Below are positions 1 to 45,553 of a DNA stretch of 64,000 bases, piece by piece; the first letter of the stretch is position 1, and each line of letters starts with the position of its first letter. The stretch spans positions 67,538-131,537 of the forward strand of contig NZ_FQVI01000001.1 in NCBI RefSeq assembly GCF_900129135.1, written 5' to 3'. The DNA is from Lactonifactor longoviformis DSM 17459. Its GTDB lineage: Bacteria; Bacillota; Clostridia; Lachnospirales; Lachnospiraceae. A program made the position numbers and the translations under genes. The notes below the pieces were generated by a model. It did not search any database. It saw nothing but the letters and a program-made list of their open reading frames with translations, and had not been told where the DNA came from.

Positions 1-3000
1 CTGTTTGTATTCAGATAGTACCACGTATTCCCTATTTTCTGCCAGCCTGTGAGCGCTCCTCCGTCTGTCCTGTGATAGGACCATCTTCCTCCGATATATG
101 CCCACCCGGTTTTCATGTAGCCGTCTGCATCAAAGGCATAATAATATGTGCCTATTTTAATGCGGCAGTCCGCGGGCCAGGTTCCGTCACTGTAACGGTA
201 CCACCAGCCTCTGCTGTTTTGTTTCCAGGCTCCTTGATAAGTAACTGTCACTTTGCACACAGCCGTTATATTACCGTTTTCTGCTGTTACCGTAATGTTA
301 GCCGTACCTTCTTCTCCTGCTGTGACCTTTCCATTTTTATCTACAGCTGCCACTTTGGGATTAGAGGAACTCCAAACCACATTTTTGTTGAATACAGTCT
401 CAGGAAAAATCTCAGCCTTTAATGTCACAGACCCCTTCTTATTCAGAACAACACTCGTCCGATCCAGAACAATCTTTTGTATAGTTTCTTCCTGACTCAT
501 TTGCTCATCCGTCTTAATGGCATCTATTACTTCTTTGGCAGCTTTTACAGCAGCATGCACACCGGTTATCTCCGATGCTTTATCAATAGCCTGGTTTCCC
601 GCCTCAATTGCTTTTGCCAATTCTTCTCTCTGGGCCTCCCTGTAGTCGGACGGATTTTTATAAGAAGATAATTCCTCCCTGGCTTTTTCTTTTGCAGCAA
701 TCAGTTCTTCCTGGGTTAACTGTTTATCTGTTTTGATTGCATCTATATTTTGTTTCGCAATCTCTAGAACGCTTGCAACCTCTGTCTTGCTCTCTGCCAA
801 ATCAATGGCATTTTCTCCATTAGAGATAGCCTTGCTCAGTTCCTTTTTCTGTTCTTCCCTGTAATCTTCAGACTTTTTATAGCTTCTCAGTTCATTCTTT
901 GCCTCATCCTTCGCGGCATCTAACTCTTCTTTTGACAGCTGGGCATTCGTTTTCACAGCATCCATTTTGTCCTTGACAGCATCAGTAATTGTTTTTACAT
1001 CAGATATCGTATCCGCATTTTCTATCATCTGCTTTCCATTTTCCAGAATCTCATTTAGTTCTTCTCTCTGAGCAGATCTGTAGTCATCCGGATTTTTATA
1101 ATTTTCCAGCTGAGTTTTGGCACTGGACTTAGCCTCAGCCAACTCCCTGTCATTCATCTGCTGAGCTGTCTCTATCTGGTCTATCGCCTTCATAGCATTT
1201 TTAAGAGCTGTATCAACCCCCAATGCGTCCTCAGCCGCATCTATAGCAGCTTCCCCTGCCTCTATGGCCTCTTTTAGCTCCTTCTGCTGGGCAGTACGAT
1301 AATCTTCTGGATCTTTGTAACTGCTTAATGATTGTTTTGCCTCTTTTTTGACTGTGTCTAATGTGAGTTCCTCTTCCAGCCTTTTTATCTTTTCTTCCGC
1401 GCTTACCAGCTTCTGAAGGATTGTATTATCTACACGATTCTGCTGTTCCTGAATCATGGAGTTATATAATGTTCTGGCAGCACTTACTGTCTCTTTATCT
1501 TCCAGGGTAAGTTCTTCTATTACCCACCCGCGAACTGTATCTGATAATCGGGCAACCGGAGTTTCATCCAGATTCCACTTGGCATAATATTTTTTATTCC
1601 CTGTACTTCCGGTGGTAATCTGCGTTACTTTCTGTCCCGCCAGATTCTCGTTGTCAAACCAGCCGTCAAATATATATCCTTTGCGGATGATCTGACTGCT
1701 GTCAGGAAGCAGGATATCGCTGTCACCAGAGGTATAAGATTCCGGTACATCATATCCCACCAGGCTTCCCCCGTTGGTTTGCAGATCAATGGTATAGCTT
1801 TCCGCATACTGCGCATAAAGCGTTATATTATGTTCAGGCATGGATAACACTTCTCCTGCCTTATAAGATGTACCGTCTCCATCCGGACTTGTATTCCAAC
1901 TTGCAAACGCTTTTCCAGATGCATCTTTGCCGGCGGGCAGTGTAAGAGCTGCATAGGGAGATGCCCAATCCTGTTCTGTATCACTTTCACCATTTCCGTC
2001 ATAGGTAATCTCATATTGCTGCGGCTCCATCCACTGATATTCACCACTGCACATATCCCGCATATCGTAAAGGGGCAGTTCTCCTTTTAGATAACGGTCA
2101 TACGCAATCAATCCATACAATGCCTGATCTGTTGCCATTCCGTTCACTGCCGTTCCGGAGCCGCCTCCGCCGTCATACCCCTCTGTTACATGTTTAAATC
2201 CCCCCACTTCCGGTGAAGTTCCACTGCCGTAAGCCCAAAATGTCAGAAGATAATCTATCATATTATCTGTGTACACTCCGTCATGTACTCCGCCCTCTTT
2301 CACAAAGCTTACCGTTCTGCCAATCCTCTCCAGATACAGATTGTCCTCCAGGGGGTTTATATCCAGAGCCGTAAGGGCCACAATGATCTGTACGGCAGAT
2401 TCTGAGTTTACAGTCCCCCAGGAGGCAAAACCGCCATGTGCAAGCTGCATATCTGCCATCGCAGCAATCCCTCGCTCTACTGCAGTGCAGAATTCCTCAT
2501 AATCAGTCCCTGCCCCTGTCTGTTCATATAACCCGCTGTCCAGATAATATGGAGCTAAAGCCTGTAACGACATACCTGTCATATCGGGATCCGGAGTCTT
2601 GCCACTCAGCGCCCAGCCCCCCTTTACTCCTGCATTGGTGGTGATTTCCTGTCTCAGTATTTCATCAATCATCTTCCCCTTGGTATTATAATCTTCAGGT
2701 GTACCCTCTGAAGGAGAATCATATAAAGAATAGTCCCCGGTATTCAGAGCAATGAGCTCCCACACGGGACCGTTTAGTCCCTGCCAAACCGCATACTTAT
2801 AAGACTGGGAAAGCTTATCGATAAAATCATACCCGGCCACATTGGACACGTTATAGCCAAGTGCAGTCAAGGAAAGAAATACACGACTGTATTCCGTACT
2901 TTTTTTATCATGCAGGATTCCTTCACAATCAACAGTATATGTCTCCACTTTCTCAATATACTGATCGAAATACCCCTCTGGTATGTAATTCATATAATCG

Positions 3001-3284
3001 CTTCCTGTGTACATCCCTCTCAGCAGATCCATAACAGACCATTCTCCTCCGGAAGTTCCAAACGTGGGTTCCGGCACTGTCTCAAGAATATACCGGGCTG
3101 CAGCATTCAAATAGAATCCTATGTCCGGGGATTCATCTTCCCAAAACCGAATATCCATCTCTTTGGGCGCATCTCCTTTGGAATCCCACGCCTCAGCAGA
3201 TATGTTGGCCGGAAAGCTGCCGAATAAAAGCATAACTACTAATATCCAGGCGCAAAAACGTCTTCCATGTCTTTGATTCTTCAT
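1..3284 (-). CDS. Secreted wall-binding protein with alpha/alpha-toroid (squalene-cyclase-like) domain; 3' end outside window
   Basis: Reads open from an ATG at 3284 to the left edge (about 1094 residues). Residues 1-31 form a signal peptide (MKNQRHGRR start, hydrophobic core, SAEA end). Residues ~40-400 are an alpha-helical domain of the prenyltransferase/squalene-cyclase toroid type, with GGWALSGKTPDPDMTGMSLQ as a typical repeat. Two InlB/Flg_new-type beta repeats follow (~422-495 and 495-570), then four ~73-residue helical repeats (~637-930) each carrying a SYKxPxDYRxxQxxEL motif, a Big_2 domain (~930-1020) and the start of choline-binding-type WYY repeats. It lies behind a cobalamin riboswitch. 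The toroid is the fold of the intrinsic factor alpha domain, so I infer cobamide binding at the wall. The domain calls are from pattern; ligand is inference. Confidence 0.85.
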   Translation of the reverse strand, partial: MKNQRHGRRFCAWILVVMLLFGSFPANISAEAWDSKGDAPKEMDIRFWEDESPDIGFYLNAAARYILETVPEPTFGTSGGEWSVMDLLRGMYTGSDYMNYIPEGYFDQYIEKVETYTVDCEGILHDKKSTEYSRVFLSLTALGYNVSNVAGYDFIDKLSQSYKYAVWQGLNGPVWELIALNTGDYSLYDSPSEGTPEDYNTKGKMIDEILRQEITTNAGVKGGWALSGKTPDPDMTGMSLQALAPYYLDSGLYEQTGAGTDYEEFCTAVERGIAAMADMQLAHGGFASWGTVNSESAVQIIVALTALDINPLEDNLYLERIGRTVSFVKEGGVHDGVYTDNMIDYLLTFWAYGSGTSPEVGGFKHVTEGYDGGGGSGTAVNGMATDQALYGLIAYDRYLKGELPLYDMRDMCSGEYQWMEPQQYEITYDGNGESDTEQDWASPYAALTLPAGKDASGKAFASWNTSPDGDGTSYKAGEVLSMPEHNITLYAQYAESYTIDLQTNGGSLVGYDVPESYTSGDSDILLPDSSQIIRKGYIFDGWFDNENLAGQKVTQITTGSTGNKKYYAKWNLDETPVARLSDTVRGWVIEELTLEDKETVSAARTLYNSMIQEQQNRVDNTILQKLVSAEEKIKRLEEELTLDTVKKEAKQSLSSYKDPEDYRTAQQKELKEAIEAGEAAIDAAEDALGVDTALKNAMKAIDQIETAQQMNDRELAEAKSSAKTQLENYKNPDDYRSAQREELNEILENGKQMIENADTISDVKTITDAVKDKMDAVKTNAQLSKEELDAAKDEAKNELRSYKKSEDYREEQKKELSKAISNGENAIDLAESKTEVASVLEIAKQNIDAIKTDKQLTQEELIAAKEKAREELSSYKNPSDYREAQREELAKAIEAGNQAIDKASEITGVHAAVKAAKEVIDAIKTDEQMSQEETIQKIVLDRTSVVLNKKGSVTLKAEIFPETVFNKNVVWSSSNPKVAAVDKNGKVTAGEEGTANITVTAENGNITAVCKVTVTYQGAWKQNSRGWWYRYSDGTWPADCRIKIGTYYYAFDADGYMKTGWAYIGGRWSYHRTDGGALTGWQKIGNTWYYLNTN

Positions 3285-3290
3285 TCTTTT

Positions 3291-3325
3291 TCTCGTCCTC
3301 CTTTTCTTTTATGCATAAAAAGAAA
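3291..3325 (-). promoter_or_regulatory. Hairpin covering the ribosome-binding site after cobalamin riboswitch 1
   Basis: On the minus strand CTTTTCTTTTTATGCATAAA is followed by AGAAAAGGAGG, so an AT-rich self-complementary hairpin runs into the AAGGAGG site of the downstream ATG. No U-tract terminator lies between aptamer and gene. This suggests translational control by sequestration of the site. Base pairing is visible; mechanism is inferred. Confidence 0.5.
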
Positions 3326-3359
3326 AGCTCTGTCTTTACTAACAGATGCTTTTTTCACG

Positions 3360-3530
3360 CAGTATGCCAGATATCCTGACTTGAGTTCTTCCTACCAGCA
3401 GCACCTTCCCGGATAGTTCCAGTGGTTTTACGCTGCTTTCGTCCCTCACACAGTAGAGAAAGGCTGTTCCGGATTCTCACCGGATTCCCTGTAAACTGAC
3501 TCATTGCTGAGCACAGACCATACCGTTTAT
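3360..3530 (-). promoter_or_regulatory. Cobalamin riboswitch 1
   Basis: The minus strand shows the cobalamin aptamer landmarks in order: a GGTATGGTC start, GGGAATCCGGTGAGAATCCG, GAACAGCC, then an ACTGTG segment, GGGAAGG, and the B12 box AGTCAGGATATCTGGCAT. It sits between a promoter at 3551 and the ATG at 3284. It should lower expression of the toroid-domain surface protein when cobalamin is plentiful. Confidence 0.93.
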
Positions 3531-3550
3531 TCTTTTTACTTTACTGCCTA

Positions 3551-3559
3551 ATTATACCA
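3551..3559 (-). promoter_or_regulatory. Extended -10 promoter for riboswitch 1 transcript
   Basis: TATAAT (3551-3556) is preceded by TGG on the minus strand, an extended -10 element. The -35 match is poor (TGGAAT). It lies about 20 bases upstream of the riboswitch start. Confidence 0.6.
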
Positions 3560-3616
3560 TATTGGTTAAAAACATTCCACATTTCATTGTACTTCTTTTT
3601 TAAATTTTATTCTCTT

Positions 3617-4507
3617 TTAATATTTCTGAAATGGATAAGCCTCATAAAAAGCCAGAGCTTGTTCCGGGGAACATCCCAGGCTTAAATCTAACTGTGCTTC
3701 CATGGTTCCATCCCATATATCAGTTACAAGCCCATACGTCCCGCCCTCCTTCTCCCCCGTAAACAGATAATATTTGCACGCATCCTTCTCTTCAGAGGAA
3801 GTACTGGGATATATCCCTATTTTCTCCAGATTGCCCGCTCCCATTGCTCCTGTATATATTACTTTATAATAGCCCTGATTCTGAAGATCCGACTTTGTTT
3901 CTTCTACTGTAGATACGTCTGTGAGTATCAAATAAATCCCTGCCGTAAGTATAATTCCCGCATAACACAAGCTTACCAGAAATGAGAGCTTAACAGCCAT
4001 GAAGAAACGCAGATACTTTTTCCCTGCTGCATATATACCAACAGAACATACAAACGGTATGGCAAAGTATCCTTTCATATCATGAGGATTTGTAATCATA
4101 TTCCTCGCCCAGCTCACCGTCCATAACATAATCACTATAGCGCTAATAATGGAAAATATTTTAAGTTCTGGTATCTCCGCTCCTTCTGCCGTAAGCTTTT
4201 CCTGCGCTCTTTTTTCTTTTGTATAGAAGAAGCCATATACAGGAGGTATGGCTGCAATCCACACCAGACCGGTTTCAACAGCTCCTCCGAGCCTAAAATT
4301 AGTGATATAAAACAAAAGTAGTACTGTTATCACATATATAATAAATGCTGTTATTGTGCCCTTTTTTTCTTTCACCTTCATGTCCTTAAATACTTGTTTC
4401 TGCCCAAAAGCAAAACATTTTCCTTTCCATCTATTTTCAGATAGTATCACCTTCTGCCAGCCACTTTTGGGGAATCCGGCAATACCATATGTCTTCATTG
4501 GGCTCAA
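3617..4507 (-). CDS. Uncharacterised polytopic membrane protein
   Basis: Family not recognised. About five membrane segments are visible (roughly residues 50-70, 75-95, 120-140, 150-165, 170-195), followed by a ~100-residue soluble C-terminal part ending PFQKY. The start is unclear: TTG at 4507, ATG at 4498, or ATG at 4381 (residue 43) directly before the first membrane segment with AAGGA close by. The first ~40 residues are soluble and basic, and the same DNA is open in another frame, so a frameshift or gene remnant upstream is possible. It stands between the two riboswitch-controlled surface genes; no riboswitch precedes it. A link to them is only positional. Confidence 0.65.
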   Translation of the reverse strand: MSPMKTYGIAGFPKSGWQKVILSENRWKGKCFAFGQKQVFKDMKVKEKKGTITAFIIYVITVLLLFYITNFRLGGAVETGLVWIAAIPPVYGFFYTKEKRAQEKLTAEGAEIPELKIFSIISAIVIMLWTVSWARNMITNPHDMKGYFAIPFVCSVGIYAAGKKYLRFFMAVKLSFLVSLCYAGIILTAGIYLILTDVSTVEETKSDLQNQGYYKVIYTGAMGAGNLEKIGIYPSTSSEEKDACKYYLFTGEKEGGTYGLVTDIWDGTMEAQLDLSLGCSPEQALAFYEAYPFQKY

Positions 4508-4659
4508 ATGGTACAGGATGTCCTTTCTCTTTATGGTAAAATCCTTTGCGAAACCCTTTTTCTATAATTCTACCATAAGGCCGGCTAAAATGTCTTAGAT
4601 TATTTACACATATATTTTTTGTATGACTTTTTTTGTTTTTATCCGTATATCTATTTAAG

Positions 4660-4686
4660 AAAAAGAGAGGTCGCCCTCTCTTTTTC
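4660..4686 (-). terminator. Rho-independent terminator after the DUF4430 surface gene
   Basis: AAAAAGAGAGGGCGACCTCTC followed by a T run forms an 11-bp stem with a 3-base loop, 15 bases past the stop at 4702. A-rich and T-rich flanks make it potentially bidirectional. Confidence 0.85.
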
Positions 4687-4701
4687 ATGTTAGCTGTCTG
4701 T

Positions 4702-7700
4702 CTATCTTGTCTTCGTCCATACTCCTGACTTGTTTACATAGTACCTGCCTACCCACGAATCAGAAGCCATTTTCCCGCTTTTCTGAAGATAATACCACTT
4801 ACCGGACAGTTGGAGCCAGCCGATGGCCATTGCCCCGCTCTCTCTCAGATAGTACCAGGTTCCCCCTATTTTCTGCCAGCCGGTTAGCATCGCTCCGCTT
4901 CCATTGCTGTAATACCAGGTACTTCCAACCTTATACCAGCCAGTCTGCATCGCTCCGCTTCCGTTCAGATAGTACCATTTACCCGACAGCTGGATCCAGC
5001 CAGTGGCCATTGCCCCGCTCTCTCTCAGATAGTACCAGGTTCCTCCTATTTTCTGCCAGCCGGTCAGCATGGCTCCGCTTCCATTGCTGTAATACCAAGT
5101 ACTTCCCACCTTATACCAGCCAGTCTGCATCTGGCCGCTTCCATTCAGGTAGTACCAGGTATTTCCCTGCTTCAGCCATCCGGCAGACATCAGGCTGTCA
5201 TTCTTCAGATAATACCACTTGCCGTCAATTTTCTGCCAGCCGATAAGCGCAGAACCCTCTGCCGTATGGTAAGACCATCTTCCACCCAGAGATACCCATC
5301 CGGTCTTCATATATCCCGCCGCATCAAAGGCATAATATCCTTTTCCTATCTTCATCCGGCAGTTGGAGAGCCATGAACCGTCATTATACCCATACCACCA
5401 GCCTTTTCCGTCCTTTTTCCAGGTTCCGCCAAAGTTAACTGTCACTTTACACTCTGCCGTTTTTCCACCGTCATTGGAAGTAACCGAAATCGCAGCAGTT
5501 CCCTCTTTGCCGGAAGTAACCATACCAGTTTGATCTACGGAAGCTACCGCAGGGTTAGAAGAACTCCAGCTTACCTTTTTATCCAAAGCTGTATCCGGAG
5601 TTATTACTGCTTTCAGCCGGACACTTCCTCCCTTTCCTAAGGAAAGGTTTGTATGATTCAAGGCTACTTCACTTACAAGCTCTTCTGGTTTCAGAGAATT
5701 AATATAATAGATAACCGGTTCTTTCTCCTCTTCCTGCACAATTACCCGAATAATTCCTTCCCGGGGCATGGTTTCAAAAGTTCTGCTTTTTCCCCTCTGA
5801 TTATTGATGTAGACATTGGCAGCGTCCGGAGCATCCACAGCGACGGTTACTTTCCCATCGTCTGCTTTTACCTTATAGGTGTCCACTCCCTCCTGCATTG
5901 CTAAGGTCTCTCCGTTTACCGTAATACTAGCAGGTGCATTCGTCTTTCCTACTTCTTTGTCTTCTTGTGCAGCGGTGACTATTGAATTAACCTCTGTAGA
6001 TTTTTCACCGATTGCACCTCCGTCCACATGAGATGCCGTCTGAATTTTGACGTACCGGATACGGTCCAGATGAACTGGATTTCCTTCTCCATCTACAGCC
6101 CAGTCCAAATCAAAGCCATCGCCGTAACCTTCCCGGTCTGTGCCGTAGGGATTTCCTGCCTCTCCCGTAACCGTAACGTTTTCACCTGTTCCTCCAACGG
6201 ATTTAGAGTTCGTATGTACATCCGCGTATCCGAAATCAGGAAATGCTGCAGCCGCTGTGCCATAATCGTCTTTGGCATCGCTTTTCAGAAGTGCGCCCGT
6301 AACTGTTACAGGCTTGTCAGCGTCAAATTCCGCGTTAGGATAATATTCATTTTTGGGAGGATGCATTCCCAAACCCATTGTCCCTGTATTTCCGTACATA
6401 TCCGTCCAATCGATTTTATTGTTTTTACCGTTAGATTCACCTTTGCTGTATGTGAGCTGATAATTCCATACTGTATTGTCGTCAAAATAATCCGATCCGG
6501 CCAGCATGTACCAGTTTTCTCCATCCTCCGAAACCATCACATTACCCGGCTCTGAAAAGCCTCCTCCCCCATTGGAGTTGCCGTAGACAATAAAATCTAT
6601 TCCGTAGGGATTGGCCGGATCGTTTTTCACAGGATTTGCGAATTTATATGTTATATATCCCCCGAATCCTCCCAGAGAGATAGGGGTATTCCAGCTGGCC
6701 CCTCCCATCAGCGAACGCTCCGGGAATAAACCATAATTGCCCATATTCGTATACTGAGAGCCTATGCAGAAATAGTCTACCACTTCCAGATCTGTGCGAA
6801 GATTTTTCCTAACAACATTCAGTCTGTAGCTGGCGGTCTGATCCCCTGCTTTCATCTGAAAGTTTACCGACTGTCCGCCTAAGCCCATAAGCCATTGAGG
6901 AAGGTAAATATCGCCGTCAGCTGCTGAGGTCACATCTATGCTCATCTTATAGATTCCTTCACTGTCCGGAACCATTTTATTTCCTTCGCTGTCATAGACC
7001 TCCACATCTTCCTCCGATACCCGGAAAGTAAATTCAAATGTATCCGTACCTAAAGGCAGATGAACATACGCAAATCTTGCCCCCTTATTGTCGTTCATAC
7101 GTCTCTCAAACAGAGGAGTCCAGAAGATTCCTGTACTCAGTTTGGGATCTTTGATTAATTTTGCGGTCAAATCAACATAATCAGGAATTCTTACTTTAAG
7201 TACTTCACTGATTCCAGCCTCATTTTTCACAGTCAGAAACAGCTCTGCCGCCCCTTCTGCGAGTTCTTTCACAGTAAAAGAATTTACCCCTTCCACCGCT
7301 GCCGTCCCATCGCCGCTGGTATCAATCTCCGGCGCCGGGCTGCCTTCCTCGGTTACCTGATAATAATAGGTTCCTTCCGTATCAGAGGTAAAGCTTATCT
7401 CGGCTTCTGTGCTGCTGATTCTCTTTGCACTGCCATCGCTTACAGAGGCTGGAGTCATTTTTGTCCCTTTTACGGTTACATCAACAGATACTGGCTGTCT
7501 GTATAACTTCTGCAGATCTTCAGATTCCGGATACTTCTCCGCATATTTTTCATATTTTATGCTGGATAAAACAGAGGAAATTGTTACGGAAGTGTTATTT
7601 TCCGGTCTTGTCACCAGTAGATTCTCATGGGTGATCACTGATGTATTGCTGGACTTAAAGGTCCGGTAGCCACTGGTTCCCATCTGATCATCCGGATTAA

Positions 7701-10035
7701 TGTCCACCGGCTGAATGCCCTTCCCCGTATCATCGTTAATATGATAGGACCACTGCAATGCTGTTTGATCCTCGTTCCAGCTAACCTCACGGAATCCATG
7801 AAGGCTCTCAGTTACCTTATCTTTGGAAAGATTCCTCCCGTCATTAATTCCTTCAAAGTAGGATGCTTTTGCCTTTTCCATAAGAGTGATTTCACTGTCT
7901 ATATCTTCCTGGGATAAGGGCTGTATTTTCAGTGGAATTTCCTTATAGACACTAATTCCATCTTTCGTATAAGTAATCACCAGATTTACCTCTGAGGCAG
8001 GACTGCCCGGCAGCGGCTGATAGACATATGTGCGGTATCCGTTGATGGTCATTACATCGGTATTGCTGCTGGTTACTTTTATTTCTTTATTACTGTCAAA
8101 ACCGATTTGGCTTGGAACCGGCAGCTTCATATCCCCGGTGACAGCGTCACAGTCCAAAGGTTCTTTCGTAATAAAATCTTTTAACTGTTCTGCTGTATAA
8201 GATGTATCCAGCTTTTGCTGCATCTGCGCCCGCTGTTCTTCCTCATCCCCTCCGGTTTTCTTTACAGCAACCTGAAATTTTTTCGTCAGGATGATATCCT
8301 CTTCATAGGTACTGTTGGTCTTCGTAAATGTAAACGCAGCGGTCAGCGTCACCTGGGTATCCGAAGACGGAATGATAACTTTCCCTGTATAATTATTATA
8401 ATCCCAGTCGTATCCATTCTTTACAATCTCAATAATTTCTGGATTAGAGGAAGTCCAGGTGATCTGTGTCAGACTGTTTCGGTAACTACCTCCCAGTATC
8501 TGGGGCAAATCAAGATCGGATGTCACTTCCTGCAGATTAACGTTTTCGCCCTTTATAGAATCCTCTGTTACTTTAGGCAGTTCTTCCTGTTCAAGCTTAT
8601 CTTTAACAGCCTGTCCATCCCAGCCGATCAAAGCTCTGTTAGTAATATCCTTTTCTGTGTCATTTAAGACCAGGTGATAGACAACATCCACATTTACCTG
8701 ATAAACAGAAGAAAATCCGGCGTTTGCATAGTCATCAAAATTATAATAGGTAATCGCACCATCTGCCGCAACATGAGAATCTGAAGAAGATAAAATGGAT
8801 ACCTGAACATTTTCTGTTCCTTCTATATTCATAGATTTTATCTTCTCTTCCATCATTGTAACCATATTACTGTCCGTTCCATACGTAGGACGTAGGTTAT
8901 ATAATTTGGATTCAATCTGCTCTAACAGATCCGCATCTGTGACTGACTTATCCTTTATATGAAGCGTCACCGTATAGGTCTGGGAAGAATCAACAGAACC
9001 GTCATTAGCTGTAAAAGTCAGAGTGGAAGTTCCTGCCTTGTCAGGCTGATAACTATAAGATGCCTCTGCTTCCACGGGGGCATTGCCGTTTATACTCACT
9101 TTATAGTTTAATTCATCCTGATCCTCGTCAGTAAAAATAGTAGAAAGCTCCGCAGTATAGGCCTGTCCCAGATCCAGATTAGCTTCTGCTTTGGGGGCTA
9201 CTCCCTCTTGAAGCTTAGGCGGATGATTCACTTCCCCGGTCTGTACTGTGATGCTATACACCTCTGCCGGGGTTTGAGCCCCGTCTCCTCCGGCCTGGTT
9301 ATTCATAGACGGCCAGGCAGGATCTCCGCATTTGACAGTTATCACTGTTCCATTTTCTACCGGTATATCCTGAGTTCTTTTGTACTCTGTCCCATCTACA
9401 CTGGATCTAACCTGAAAATTCTTATTGACAGCCGTAGGAGTCACTGTAACACTTTTCGTTCCCTCAGGGACCGTAAGAGTATACTCTTTCACGTCCCCCG
9501 AAAATGCCGGTTCCAGTTCTCCCTCACTGCATTCTAACGCGCTCAGTGTTTTATTGTTATTGCTCCAGGAACTTCCAACGTCCTCGCCGTAATTCAGTGT
9601 ATAAAGGATAGATACGGTATCCCCGTCCCCCAGTCCTCCGCTTTCCACTGTAAAGTCTCCAAACCCGGCATTAGTAAACCAGTCGTTGATGGTTCCCATC
9701 CAGCCGCTTCCGCTTCCCCGGTCAAAAGCGGCCAGACCCCCTATGGATGATATGTAATTGCTCTCTGCCCCCACTACTTCCATACCGTTGGCCTCGGCCA
9801 ATCTTACAATCACATCCATAGTGCTGTCTGTCTGATAGAGGTCTACCCATCCTTCTGCCATAACACCTCTGGGATCCGGATAGGTTTCTCCTGCCGGTGT
9901 AGGCACTGTGTCCTCAATACTTACATAAACTTCTCCAATTGGCACGCTGCTGTCTGCAGCTGCCGGTACAGGGATGGAGGTGATACATAGTATAACAGCA
10001 GTCAACATCCCCAAAACTCTTCTCATTTTTTTCAT
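4702..10035 (-). CDS. Giant secreted DUF4430 (transcobalamin-like C-terminal) surface protein with Ig-like domains and choline-binding-type repeats
   Basis: A 1777-residue protein with a signal peptide (1-28, ends PAAADSS). Residues ~34-155 match the DUF4430 pattern: GSGSGWMGTINDWFTNAGFG, then DGDTVSILYTL. Next come a cadherin-like beta sandwich (~165-240), a further Ig/cadherin-like domain (~270-365), several bacterial Ig-type domains with WTSSNPEI-like motifs, a beta-rich region (~1086-1316) resembling a discoidin-like binding module (GGYITYKF, MVSEDGENWYML), a Big_2 domain (~1449-1531) and eleven or so 20-residue WYY repeats to the C-terminus. ATG with AAGGAGGGAAG upstream. It lies behind a cobalamin riboswitch and terminator hairpin. 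DUF4430 is the family of the transcobalamin/intrinsic factor beta domain, so cobamide binding is inferred. It ends at a strong terminator. Confidence 0.9.
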   Translation of the reverse strand: MKKMRRVLGMLTAVILCITSIPVPAAADSSVPIGEVYVSIEDTVPTPAGETYPDPRGVMAEGWVDLYQTDSTMDVIVRLAEANGMEVVGAESNYISSIGGLAAFDRGSGSGWMGTINDWFTNAGFGDFTVESGGLGDGDTVSILYTLNYGEDVGSSWSNNNKTLSALECSEGELEPAFSGDVKEYTLTVPEGTKSVTVTPTAVNKNFQVRSSVDGTEYKRTQDIPVENGTVITVKCGDPAWPSMNNQAGGDGAQTPAEVYSITVQTGEVNHPPKLQEGVAPKAEANLDLGQAYTAELSTIFTDEDQDELNYKVSINGNAPVEAEASYSYQPDKAGTSTLTFTANDGSVDSSQTYTVTLHIKDKSVTDADLLEQIESKLYNLRPTYGTDSNMVTMMEEKIKSMNIEGTENVQVSILSSSDSHVAADGAITYYNFDDYANAGFSSVYQVNVDVVYHLVLNDTEKDITNRALIGWDGQAVKDKLEQEELPKVTEDSIKGENVNLQEVTSDLDLPQILGGSYRNSLTQITWTSSNPEIIEIVKNGYDWDYNNYTGKVIIPSSDTQVTLTAAFTFTKTNSTYEEDIILTKKFQVAVKKTGGDEEEQRAQMQQKLDTSYTAEQLKDFITKEPLDCDAVTGDMKLPVPSQIGFDSNKEIKVTSSNTDVMTINGYRTYVYQPLPGSPASEVNLVITYTKDGISVYKEIPLKIQPLSQEDIDSEITLMEKAKASYFEGINDGRNLSKDKVTESLHGFREVSWNEDQTALQWSYHINDDTGKGIQPVDINPDDQMGTSGYRTFKSSNTSVITHENLLVTRPENNTSVTISSVLSSIKYEKYAEKYPESEDLQKLYRQPVSVDVTVKGTKMTPASVSDGSAKRISSTEAEISFTSDTEGTYYYQVTEEGSPAPEIDTSGDGTAAVEGVNSFTVKELAEGAAELFLTVKNEAGISEVLKVRIPDYVDLTAKLIKDPKLSTGIFWTPLFERRMNDNKGARFAYVHLPLGTDTFEFTFRVSEEDVEVYDSEGNKMVPDSEGIYKMSIDVTSAADGDIYLPQWLMGLGGQSVNFQMKAGDQTASYRLNVVRKNLRTDLEVVDYFCIGSQYTNMGNYGLFPERSLMGGASWNTPISLGGFGGYITYKFANPVKNDPANPYGIDFIVYGNSNGGGGFSEPGNVMVSEDGENWYMLAGSDYFDDNTVWNYQLTYSKGESNGKNNKIDWTDMYGNTGTMGLGMHPPKNEYYPNAEFDADKPVTVTGALLKSDAKDDYGTAAAAFPDFGYADVHTNSKSVGGTGENVTVTGEAGNPYGTDREGYGDGFDLDWAVDGEGNPVHLDRIRYVKIQTASHVDGGAIGEKSTEVNSIVTAAQEDKEVGKTNAPASITVNGETLAMQEGVDTYKVKADDGKVTVAVDAPDAANVYINNQRGKSRTFETMPREGIIRVIVQEEEKEPVIYYINSLKPEELVSEVALNHTNLSLGKGGSVRLKAVITPDTALDKKVSWSSSNPAVASVDQTGMVTSGKEGTAAISVTSNDGGKTAECKVTVNFGGTWKKDGKGWWYGYNDGSWLSNCRMKIGKGYYAFDAAGYMKTGWVSLGGRWSYHTAEGSALIGWQKIDGKWYYLKNDSLMSAGWLKQGNTWYYLNGSGQMQTGWYKVGSTWYYSNGSGAMLTGWQKIGGTWYYLRESGAMATGWIQLSGKWYYLNGSGAMQTGWYKVGSTWYYSNGSGAMLTGWQKIGGTWYYLRESGAMAIGWLQLSGKWYYLQKSGKMASDSWVGRYYVNKSGVWTKTR
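4801..5160 (-). repeat. Two 180-bp tandem copies inside the wall-binding repeats
   Basis: 4801-4980 and 4981-5160 are near-identical, in frame, and encode three 20-residue choline-binding-type repeats each (YKVGSTWYY, QKIGGTWYYL, QLSGKWYYL). The third-position differences are few, indicating recent duplication. Copy number may vary between strains. Confidence 0.85.
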
Positions 10036-10145
10036 TTTGACTTCCCTCCTTGTTTTATTTAATCTGGCATTTCTTTCTTTTTGATTTCTTTCTTTTTGTC
10101 AACCACCTCCCACATATTTCCCGGTTCTTTTTTTCGCCAAACTAG

Positions 10146-10182
10146 AAAAGGGCCTTCCGCCTTGTAAGCAGAAGAACCCTTT
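10146..10182 (-). terminator. Expression-platform terminator of cobalamin riboswitch 2
   Basis: On the minus strand AAAGGGTTCTTCTGC pairs with GCGGAAGGCCCTTT, then TTTTCTAG. It lies between the aptamer and the DUF4430 gene's ATG at 10035. The stem suits transcription attenuation, although the T run is short. Confidence 0.6.
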
Positions 10183-10247
10183 ATTCTCTCTGATTTTGTG
10201 CACGAAAAAAAGCATACTTCCTTCACCCGGAACTATTGCTCTCTTCC

Positions 10248-10420
10248 TGAATATGGCAGGTATCCTGACTCCGCTTCCTCCTCAAAGACCCCTTCCCGGA
10301 ATTCTTCCAGTGGTATTGGCCCTCTTGTCCGCATTACAGTAGTGGTGACTGTTCCGGAATTTCACCGGATTCCCTTTTGCTGATTACAGCTAAACTAACT
10401 GCCATCAGACCATATCAGTA
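10248..10420 (-). promoter_or_regulatory. Cobalamin riboswitch 2
   Basis: Minus strand shows GGGAATCCGGTGAAATTCCG, GAACAGTC, CACTACTGTAATGCGGAC, CCACTGG, GGGAAGG and the B12 box AGTCAGGATACCTGCCAT, the full set of cobalamin aptamer landmarks. It precedes the giant DUF4430 surface protein gene. Confidence 0.95.
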
Positions 10421-10438
10421 TTATCCTTGTTCATATAA

Positions 10439-45452: not shown

Positions 45453-45550
45453 GAAAAGAGCCTACTATCCGGGCTCTTTGCCCAGACGGTCGGCTCATTA
45501 TCATTATACTTCATGTGGTTACTTCCACTTCCGTCAGTCGTATAACTAAC
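45453..45550 (-). promoter_or_regulatory. ZTP (pfl) riboswitch with terminator
   Basis: On the minus strand the leader has ATACGACTGACGGAAGTGG, AACCACATGAAG, and then GCCGACCGTCTGGGCA, where GACGG and CCGTC can pair; these are the pfl-motif landmarks. A terminator hairpin GAGCCCGGATAGTAGGCTC with TTTTC follows (45453-45479). It lies directly upstream of the AICAR transformylase gene, a classic ZTP target. Confidence 0.85.
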
Positions 45551-45553
45551 CTT

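Follow-up and report, generated by a model that had tools for sequence, protein, structure and literature searches.

Candidate wall-held relatives of intrinsic factor and transcobalamin under cobalamin riboswitch control in Lactonifactor longoviformis

How Gram-positive bacteria capture scarce vitamin B12 at a surface that has no outer membrane receptor is, to our knowledge, largely unknown. Energy-coupling factor (ECF) importers are usually thought to work independently of an extracellular binding protein, with the S component doing the binding. A stretch of 64,000 nucleotides from Lactonifactor longoviformis DSM 17459 (contig NZ_FQVI01000001.1, positions 67,538 to 131,537; the whole stretch is called the window here) raises the question of whether such capture proteins exist, and whether they resemble those of vertebrates. 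Near its start lie two genes for giant secreted proteins, one with an alpha/alpha toroid and the other with a DUF4430 domain, which a preliminary description made from the sequence had proposed to be a cobamide trap resembling a split intrinsic factor. Our analysis indicates with high confidence that extracellular capture of cobamides or other corrinoids is their role, and we consider it likely that they are wall-tethered relatives of intrinsic factor and transcobalamin, with the alpha and beta domains on separate polypeptides.

Predicted regulation, wall attachment and domains of the two proteins

The locus is transcribed from the minus strand in the order aptamer (10238-10428), DUF4430 gene (4702-10035), an open reading frame (ORF) of 296 residues (3617-4507), aptamer (3349-3537) and toroid gene (3-3284). 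The two aptamers match the cobalamin riboswitch family RF00174 with 97.6 bits (E 4e-23) upstream of the DUF4430 gene and 77.4 bits (E 2.5e-17) upstream of the toroid gene, and a search of the window with RF00174 found just these two. A terminator-like hairpin (3310-3356, -11.9 kcal/mol, followed by CUUUUU) lies between the second aptamer and the toroid gene, and the expression platform of the DUF4430 gene (10143-10242) contains two such hairpins, recognized by folding and U-runs: one with a U-run at 10193-10242 (-11.3 kcal/mol) and a stronger one at 10143-10182 (-19.4 kcal/mol, z -4.1). A hairpin with a U-run thus sits between each aptamer and the start codon, the arrangement expected of transcriptional OFF switches. 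The intervening ORF appears to encode a multi-helix membrane protein, for which no Pfam or NCBIfam family match was found.

Both proteins begin with an evident signal peptide and end in Big_2 and choline-binding repeats, and the two tails are 57% identical across 166 residues, as expected of the matching wall repeats described earlier. The DUF4430 protein, 1777 residues long, also contains immunoglobulin-like (Ig-like) domains and a BtuH-type domain, and its tail (4717-5676) was assigned with PF02368, PF19127 and PF01473. The toroid protein (1094 residues within the window) additionally carries List_Bact repeats and helical repeats ahead of its tail (3-476, from Pfam and the tail alignment); its gene continues for ~10 residues beyond the window edge and then enters an assembly gap, so its wall repeats can be counted only as a lower bound. 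The genome contains one LicD (choline-decoration) gene, which is in keeping with a choline-decorated envelope.

The predicted beta domain, DUF4430 or transcobalamin C-terminal-like, spans residues ~30-160 (9556-9948) as judged by PF14478 and the family alignment. The PF14478 core covers residues 70-133 and, at 32.2 bits (E 1.5e-7), exceeds the family cut-off of 23.8, and the alignment shows that the window copy retains the SGWM...N core common to the family. The alpha/alpha toroid, of the squalene-cyclase/transcobalamin alpha-domain type, occupies residues 33-425 of the other protein (2010-3188). AlphaFold2, given an alignment with 44 relatives from named genomes, modelled this region as an all-alpha toroid (predicted local distance difference test, pLDDT, 90.3; predicted template modelling score, pTM, 0.90), and a 45-row toroid profile searched against PDB sequences matched squalene-hopene cyclase (E 4e-12). 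The predicted fold class can be regarded as secure. A family search such as the preliminary description had proposed thus recovered PF14478 in one protein, whereas no Pfam or NCBIfam model recognizes the toroid in the other; a membrane-anchored toroid paralogue gave a weak PF00432 match, below the cut-off. Regulation, wall location and domain kinship are the parts of the earlier proposal that the sequence supports.

Foldseek searches with the toroid model returned toroid proteins in general, with transcobalamin chains at ranks 3, 4, 6, 8 and 9 and with the best root-mean-square deviation (rmsd) among the top matches (5.4-6.5 A over ~275 columns). The case for a specific kinship with transcobalamin comes from genomic context, namely riboswitches, operons and fusions. 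One such natural toroid-DUF4430 fusion, from a related locus (L031), was modelled (pLDDT 84.7, pTM 0.69), and each of its top 15 PDB matches (E 4e-10 to 6e-8) was a transcobalamin, an intrinsic factor or a haptocorrin, in alignments spanning both domains; toroid-class enzymes came next, at 5e-5. Neither this fusion nor the window toroid has a predicted fold unlike that of intrinsic factor, the outcome that the preliminary description had named as counting against its proposal. The inferred kinship with human carriers rests on Pfam and on predicted folds. DUF4430 has been recorded at the C-terminal end of vertebrate transcobalamins (PMC4350170), and Burroughs et al. (2007) placed the transcobalamin C-terminal domain and its bacterial relatives in one beta-grasp clade (PMC1796856).

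Genomic association with cobalamin riboswitches and importers

To place the two domains in context, we used an unselected sample of 41 related genomes, chosen without regard to toroid or DUF4430 genes. Both domains occurred in 11 of the 41, a toroid alone in one, DUF4430 alone in three and neither in 26 (Fisher p ~1e-6). A same-strand DUF4430 domain lay within 10 kb of 17 of the 18 toroids, and 14 of the 29 DUF4430 domains had a cobalamin riboswitch on the same strand at most 5 kb upstream, where 0.04 were expected. Since domains that share an operon are not independent observations, there were fewer separate events than these counts suggest, yet the excess remains several hundredfold. Among 30 toroid-selected genomes, a riboswitch was found within 5 kb of 44 of 112 DUF4430 domains (0.6 expected) and 30 of 68 toroids (0.4 expected). 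More than 30 ORFs among 79 loci fuse the two domains, in either order, and other Clostridia have operons with the order toroid, DUF4430, ECF T component, ECF ATPase/S component. The layout in the window, with separate genes and separate riboswitches, is not unique, because the same arrangement recurs in Anaerosalibacter and in a metagenome-assembled genome of the Bacillales. The toroid family is common, with 274 relatives in one scan across 84,980 species genomes. In some relatives the ECF ATPases and an S component are fused as one protein beside toroid and DUF4430 genes (L054:11955-14600 and L043:11021-14200, both on the plus strand).

A second locus of the same genome, on contig C72, was missed in the preliminary description. 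It begins with a cobalamin riboswitch, a leucine-rich repeat gene, a wall-anchored toroid that is 60% identical to the window toroid, and a secreted DUF4430 protein; next come a toroid and then a DUF4430 protein that each have a membrane helix, C-terminal in the toroid and N-terminal in the DUF4430 protein, and after them three ECF parts, namely the T component (CbiQ), a double ATPase and the S component. The leucine-rich repeat protein, of the BspA type (L013:907-1785, plus strand), lies between riboswitch and toroid gene and has no evident signal peptide. Further along lies a gene for a DUF4430 protein of 2205 residues with choline-binding repeats (L014:310-6927, plus strand), which also has six Big_2 domains and a pyrroloquinoline quinone (PQQ)-like beta-propeller; the propeller was examined as a candidate relative of BtuG but is not assigned as one, the PDB giving just a weak match to BamB and no clear relative that binds B12. 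The genome has three toroids, all in the window or on C72, and five DUF4430 genes, four of them in these two places. The fifth belongs to a cbiMNQO cluster downstream of another cobalamin riboswitch, where the region 3' of cbiMNQO (L015:12304-13246, minus strand) encodes two proteins: a small DUF4430 protein that has a single membrane helix at its N-terminus, and a membrane protein of 175 residues without a family match. The latter may be another S component, partnered by this DUF4430 protein. A BtuFCD-like importer, preceded by yet another cobalamin riboswitch, is encoded on contig C23. Sequence thus points to two plausible importers in this genome, the ECF system on C72 and the BtuFCD-like system on C23, neither of them beside the window pair.

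The preliminary description had also overlooked the BtuH-type domain of the DUF4430 protein (residues 1117-1352; 5980-6687, minus strand). This domain matches PDB 8blw_B, annotated as a YncE family protein of Bacteroides (E 9.6e-23), in a region that presumably corresponds to the BtuH portion of BtuG1/BtuGH, and 7biz_A, BtuH2 (E 5e-14). Within the alignment, which does not include Q333 of BtuH2, the contact Asn399 is kept and His476 possibly so, with a shift of one residue, whereas the aromatic contacts Tyr510, Trp511 and Trp577 are replaced and Leu578 is Ile; because the aromatic contacts are mostly lost, binding of B12 by this domain is uncertain. In other Firmicutes, a BtuH-type module and DUF4430 share one ORF (L084, L042) or lie close to one another (L038, L064, L065, L093). 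The C-terminal domain is the B12-binding part of Bacteroides BtuH, for which three Firmicutes homologues have been reported, one near a predicted ECF transporter (PMC8941943).

A possible route for captured cobamides and its alternatives

We infer the following for the ligand, the clamping, the choice of partner and the hand-over. At low intracellular cobamide, the riboswitches would derepress both genes, and the secreted proteins would be held in the wall by their choline-binding repeats, concentrating cobamides at the surface. The toroid may provide a cavity and the DUF4430 domain a lid that closes on one cobamide; that toroid and DUF4430 jointly form the site is probable. The lid could come from the neighboring window protein or from any of the three secreted or surface DUF4430 proteins of the C72 locus, and that the two window proteins are each other's partners is somewhat doubtful. 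The BtuH-type domain may serve as an extra trap or as a hand-over site, and the cargo would move on either to the C72-encoded ECF importer and the membrane-tethered pair of toroid and DUF4430 proteins beside it, or to the BtuFCD-like system encoded on C23. A full Gram-positive B12 relay, running from a wall toroid and a wall DUF4430 protein with a BtuH-type trap to a membrane toroid/DUF4430 pair at an ECF importer, is a tentative proposal. If correct, it would unite a vertebrate-type clamp with a Bacteroides-type trap in one system and provide a living bacterial counterpart, perhaps the source, of animal intrinsic factor. Even by itself, a relative of intrinsic factor that is held in the wall and controlled by riboswitches would, if confirmed, reveal how Firmicutes of the gut and the environment compete for B12.

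Several observations weigh against this explanation. The TM-score of the toroid model with transcobalamin is only 0.36-0.39, and other toroids match equally well. The window DUF4430 is divergent, with 38.9 bits across profile positions 2-63. In the L031 fusion model the two domains match the carriers separately, packed unlike those in ligand-bound carriers (rmsd ~20 A), and because of this difference in placement the model supports domain identity and not a closed clamp. Profiles of bacterial DUF4430 (20 rows) and of the toroid, searched against PDB sequences, did not reach the human carriers, and searching PDB sequences with individual domains, or with alignments of three and four rows, yielded nothing useful. 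Importer genes are not encoded next to the window pair. Finally, the organism is apparently a B12 maker, with pathway completeness partly checked: the genome has a cobalamin synthesis cluster (L015; G000:C22:22000-41000) and encodes CbiH, CbiJ, CbiE/T, CobB, CobT, CobS, CbiB, CobQ, CbiC and CbiK.

The two proteins might instead act as independent traps, the DUF4430 protein capturing through its DUF4430 domain, its BtuH-type domain or both and the toroid pairing with a DUF4430 protein from another locus, so that no clamp forms between the window proteins. We rate this as a serious possibility, though below even odds. The DUF4430 protein carries a BtuH-type domain and therefore could trap cobamides without a toroid partner: BtuH domains of Bacteroides bind B12 alone (PMC8941943, PMC12751083), as does the BtuH part of a BtuGH fusion (PMC12751083). 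It is common for a DUF4430-only gene to have a riboswitch of its own, and three of the 41 related genomes have DUF4430 but lack a toroid. However, the loss of the Tyr510, Trp511 and Trp577 contacts argues against capture by the window BtuH-type domain, and fusion or adjacency of toroid and DUF4430 is far too frequent for the two to act in unrelated ways. A related question is the identity of the ligand, which instead of complete cobalamin may be a precursor or an analogue of cobamides (cobinamide, pseudocobalamin or some other corrinoid), taken up for salvage or remodelling by a cell that makes B12. The encoded cobalamin pathway speaks for this idea, as does the transport of cobinamide besides cobalamin by ECF-CbrT (PMC5997447), but riboswitch control alone cannot discriminate between cobamides, and we regard such a ligand as rather unlikely.

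Two further explanations would remove the proteins from B12 capture altogether. They could be ordinary adhesins or matrix proteins that bind sugars or proteins through their Ig-like, toroid and DUF4430 modules and are switched on under B12 shortage by chance, given that Pfam recognizes many adhesin-type modules (Big_2, cadherin-like, List_Bact and choline-binding repeats) and that toroids also resemble glycoside hydrolases in the Foldseek matches; the conserved coupling to ECF importers and cobalamin riboswitches, and the fact that the best fold matches of the modelled fusion are all B12 carriers, make this improbable. Still more remote is the idea that the toroid works as an enzyme outside the cell, resembling a terpene cyclase or acting on glycans. 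The squalene-hopene cyclase match would fit an enzyme, as would the conserved family motif D-x-D-[IM]-T, which we liken to the DxDD motif of cyclases; but the motif reads DxDI or DxDM instead of DxDD, the protein is secreted, and the family adjoins importer genes under B12 riboswitches. Cobamide capture and fold kinship with intrinsic factor, as first proposed, are strongly supported by the agreement of riboswitch, ECF-operon and fusion evidence.

Relation to known B12 carriers and scavengers

The window proteins resemble vertebrate intrinsic factor, transcobalamin and haptocorrin in their alpha/alpha toroid, DUF4430-type beta domain and secretion. The vertebrate carriers are single polypeptides, whereas the domains described here, known from sequence, are distributed over two wall-anchored proteins with additional Ig-like, helical and BtuH-type parts.

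The concept of a bacterial toroid or SLBB scavenger is not new, because Burroughs et al. (2007) predicted a role in B12 scavenging for SLBB proteins secreted by Gram-positive bacteria and encoded near CbiO/CbiQ-type ECF genes, several of which are fused to toroids or accompanied by a paralogue or beta-propeller; these authors, who do not mention riboswitches, noted that the hosts usually lack B12 synthesis and proposed such bacteria as the source of the B12 carriers of animals (PMC1796856). As in that clade, a transcobalamin-type SLBB domain is carried here by a predicted surface protein, to judge from the signal peptide, wall repeats and PF14478 match. The link to CbiO/CbiQ-like ECF genes is found at C72 and in other Clostridia, not beside the window genes, and the tendency toward hosts without B12 synthesis does not appear to hold in this genome with its cobalamin synthesis cluster. 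What the present analysis adds is the riboswitch evidence, the division of toroid and DUF4430 between two wall proteins that each have a switch of their own, the presence of a BtuH-type domain joined to DUF4430, a wall-plus-membrane set with an ECF importer, and occurrence in an apparent B12 maker. Experiments on bacterial transcobalamin-like proteins were not found in the literature covered, which largely leaves out subscription journals and preprints; if our reading is correct, the 2007 idea of a bacterial origin of animal B12 carriers becomes testable with purified proteins.

With BtuH and BtuGH of Bacteroides thetaiotaomicron (PMC8941943, PMC12751083) the window system shares a homologous domain and, probably, riboswitch-controlled B12 capture at the surface, but its version is wall-anchored, Gram-positive and joined to DUF4430, with most aromatic B12 contacts replaced. 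DUF4465/BtuJ proteins (PMC12751083, PMC13398666) are likewise bacterial surface B12 scavengers under riboswitch control; their fold differs, and DUF4465/BtuJ was not found in the window. The C72 system resembles ECF-CbrT (PMC5997447), a B12 transporter, in being an ECF importer whose S component is separate and which presumably takes up B12, and differs from it in that genes for extracellular toroid and DUF4430 proteins lie at the same locus as the ECF genes.

Two other riboswitches were noted in passing. A ZMP/ZTP riboswitch lies elsewhere in the window (45473-45551, minus strand; 53.8 bits). A strong cobalamin riboswitch of 98.4 bits (L017:15355-15550, minus strand; G000:C35:379354-379549) is followed ~360 bases downstream by a valS T-box leader with no evident ORF in between; it may be an orphan, or else its target may be a small RNA or a short ORF.

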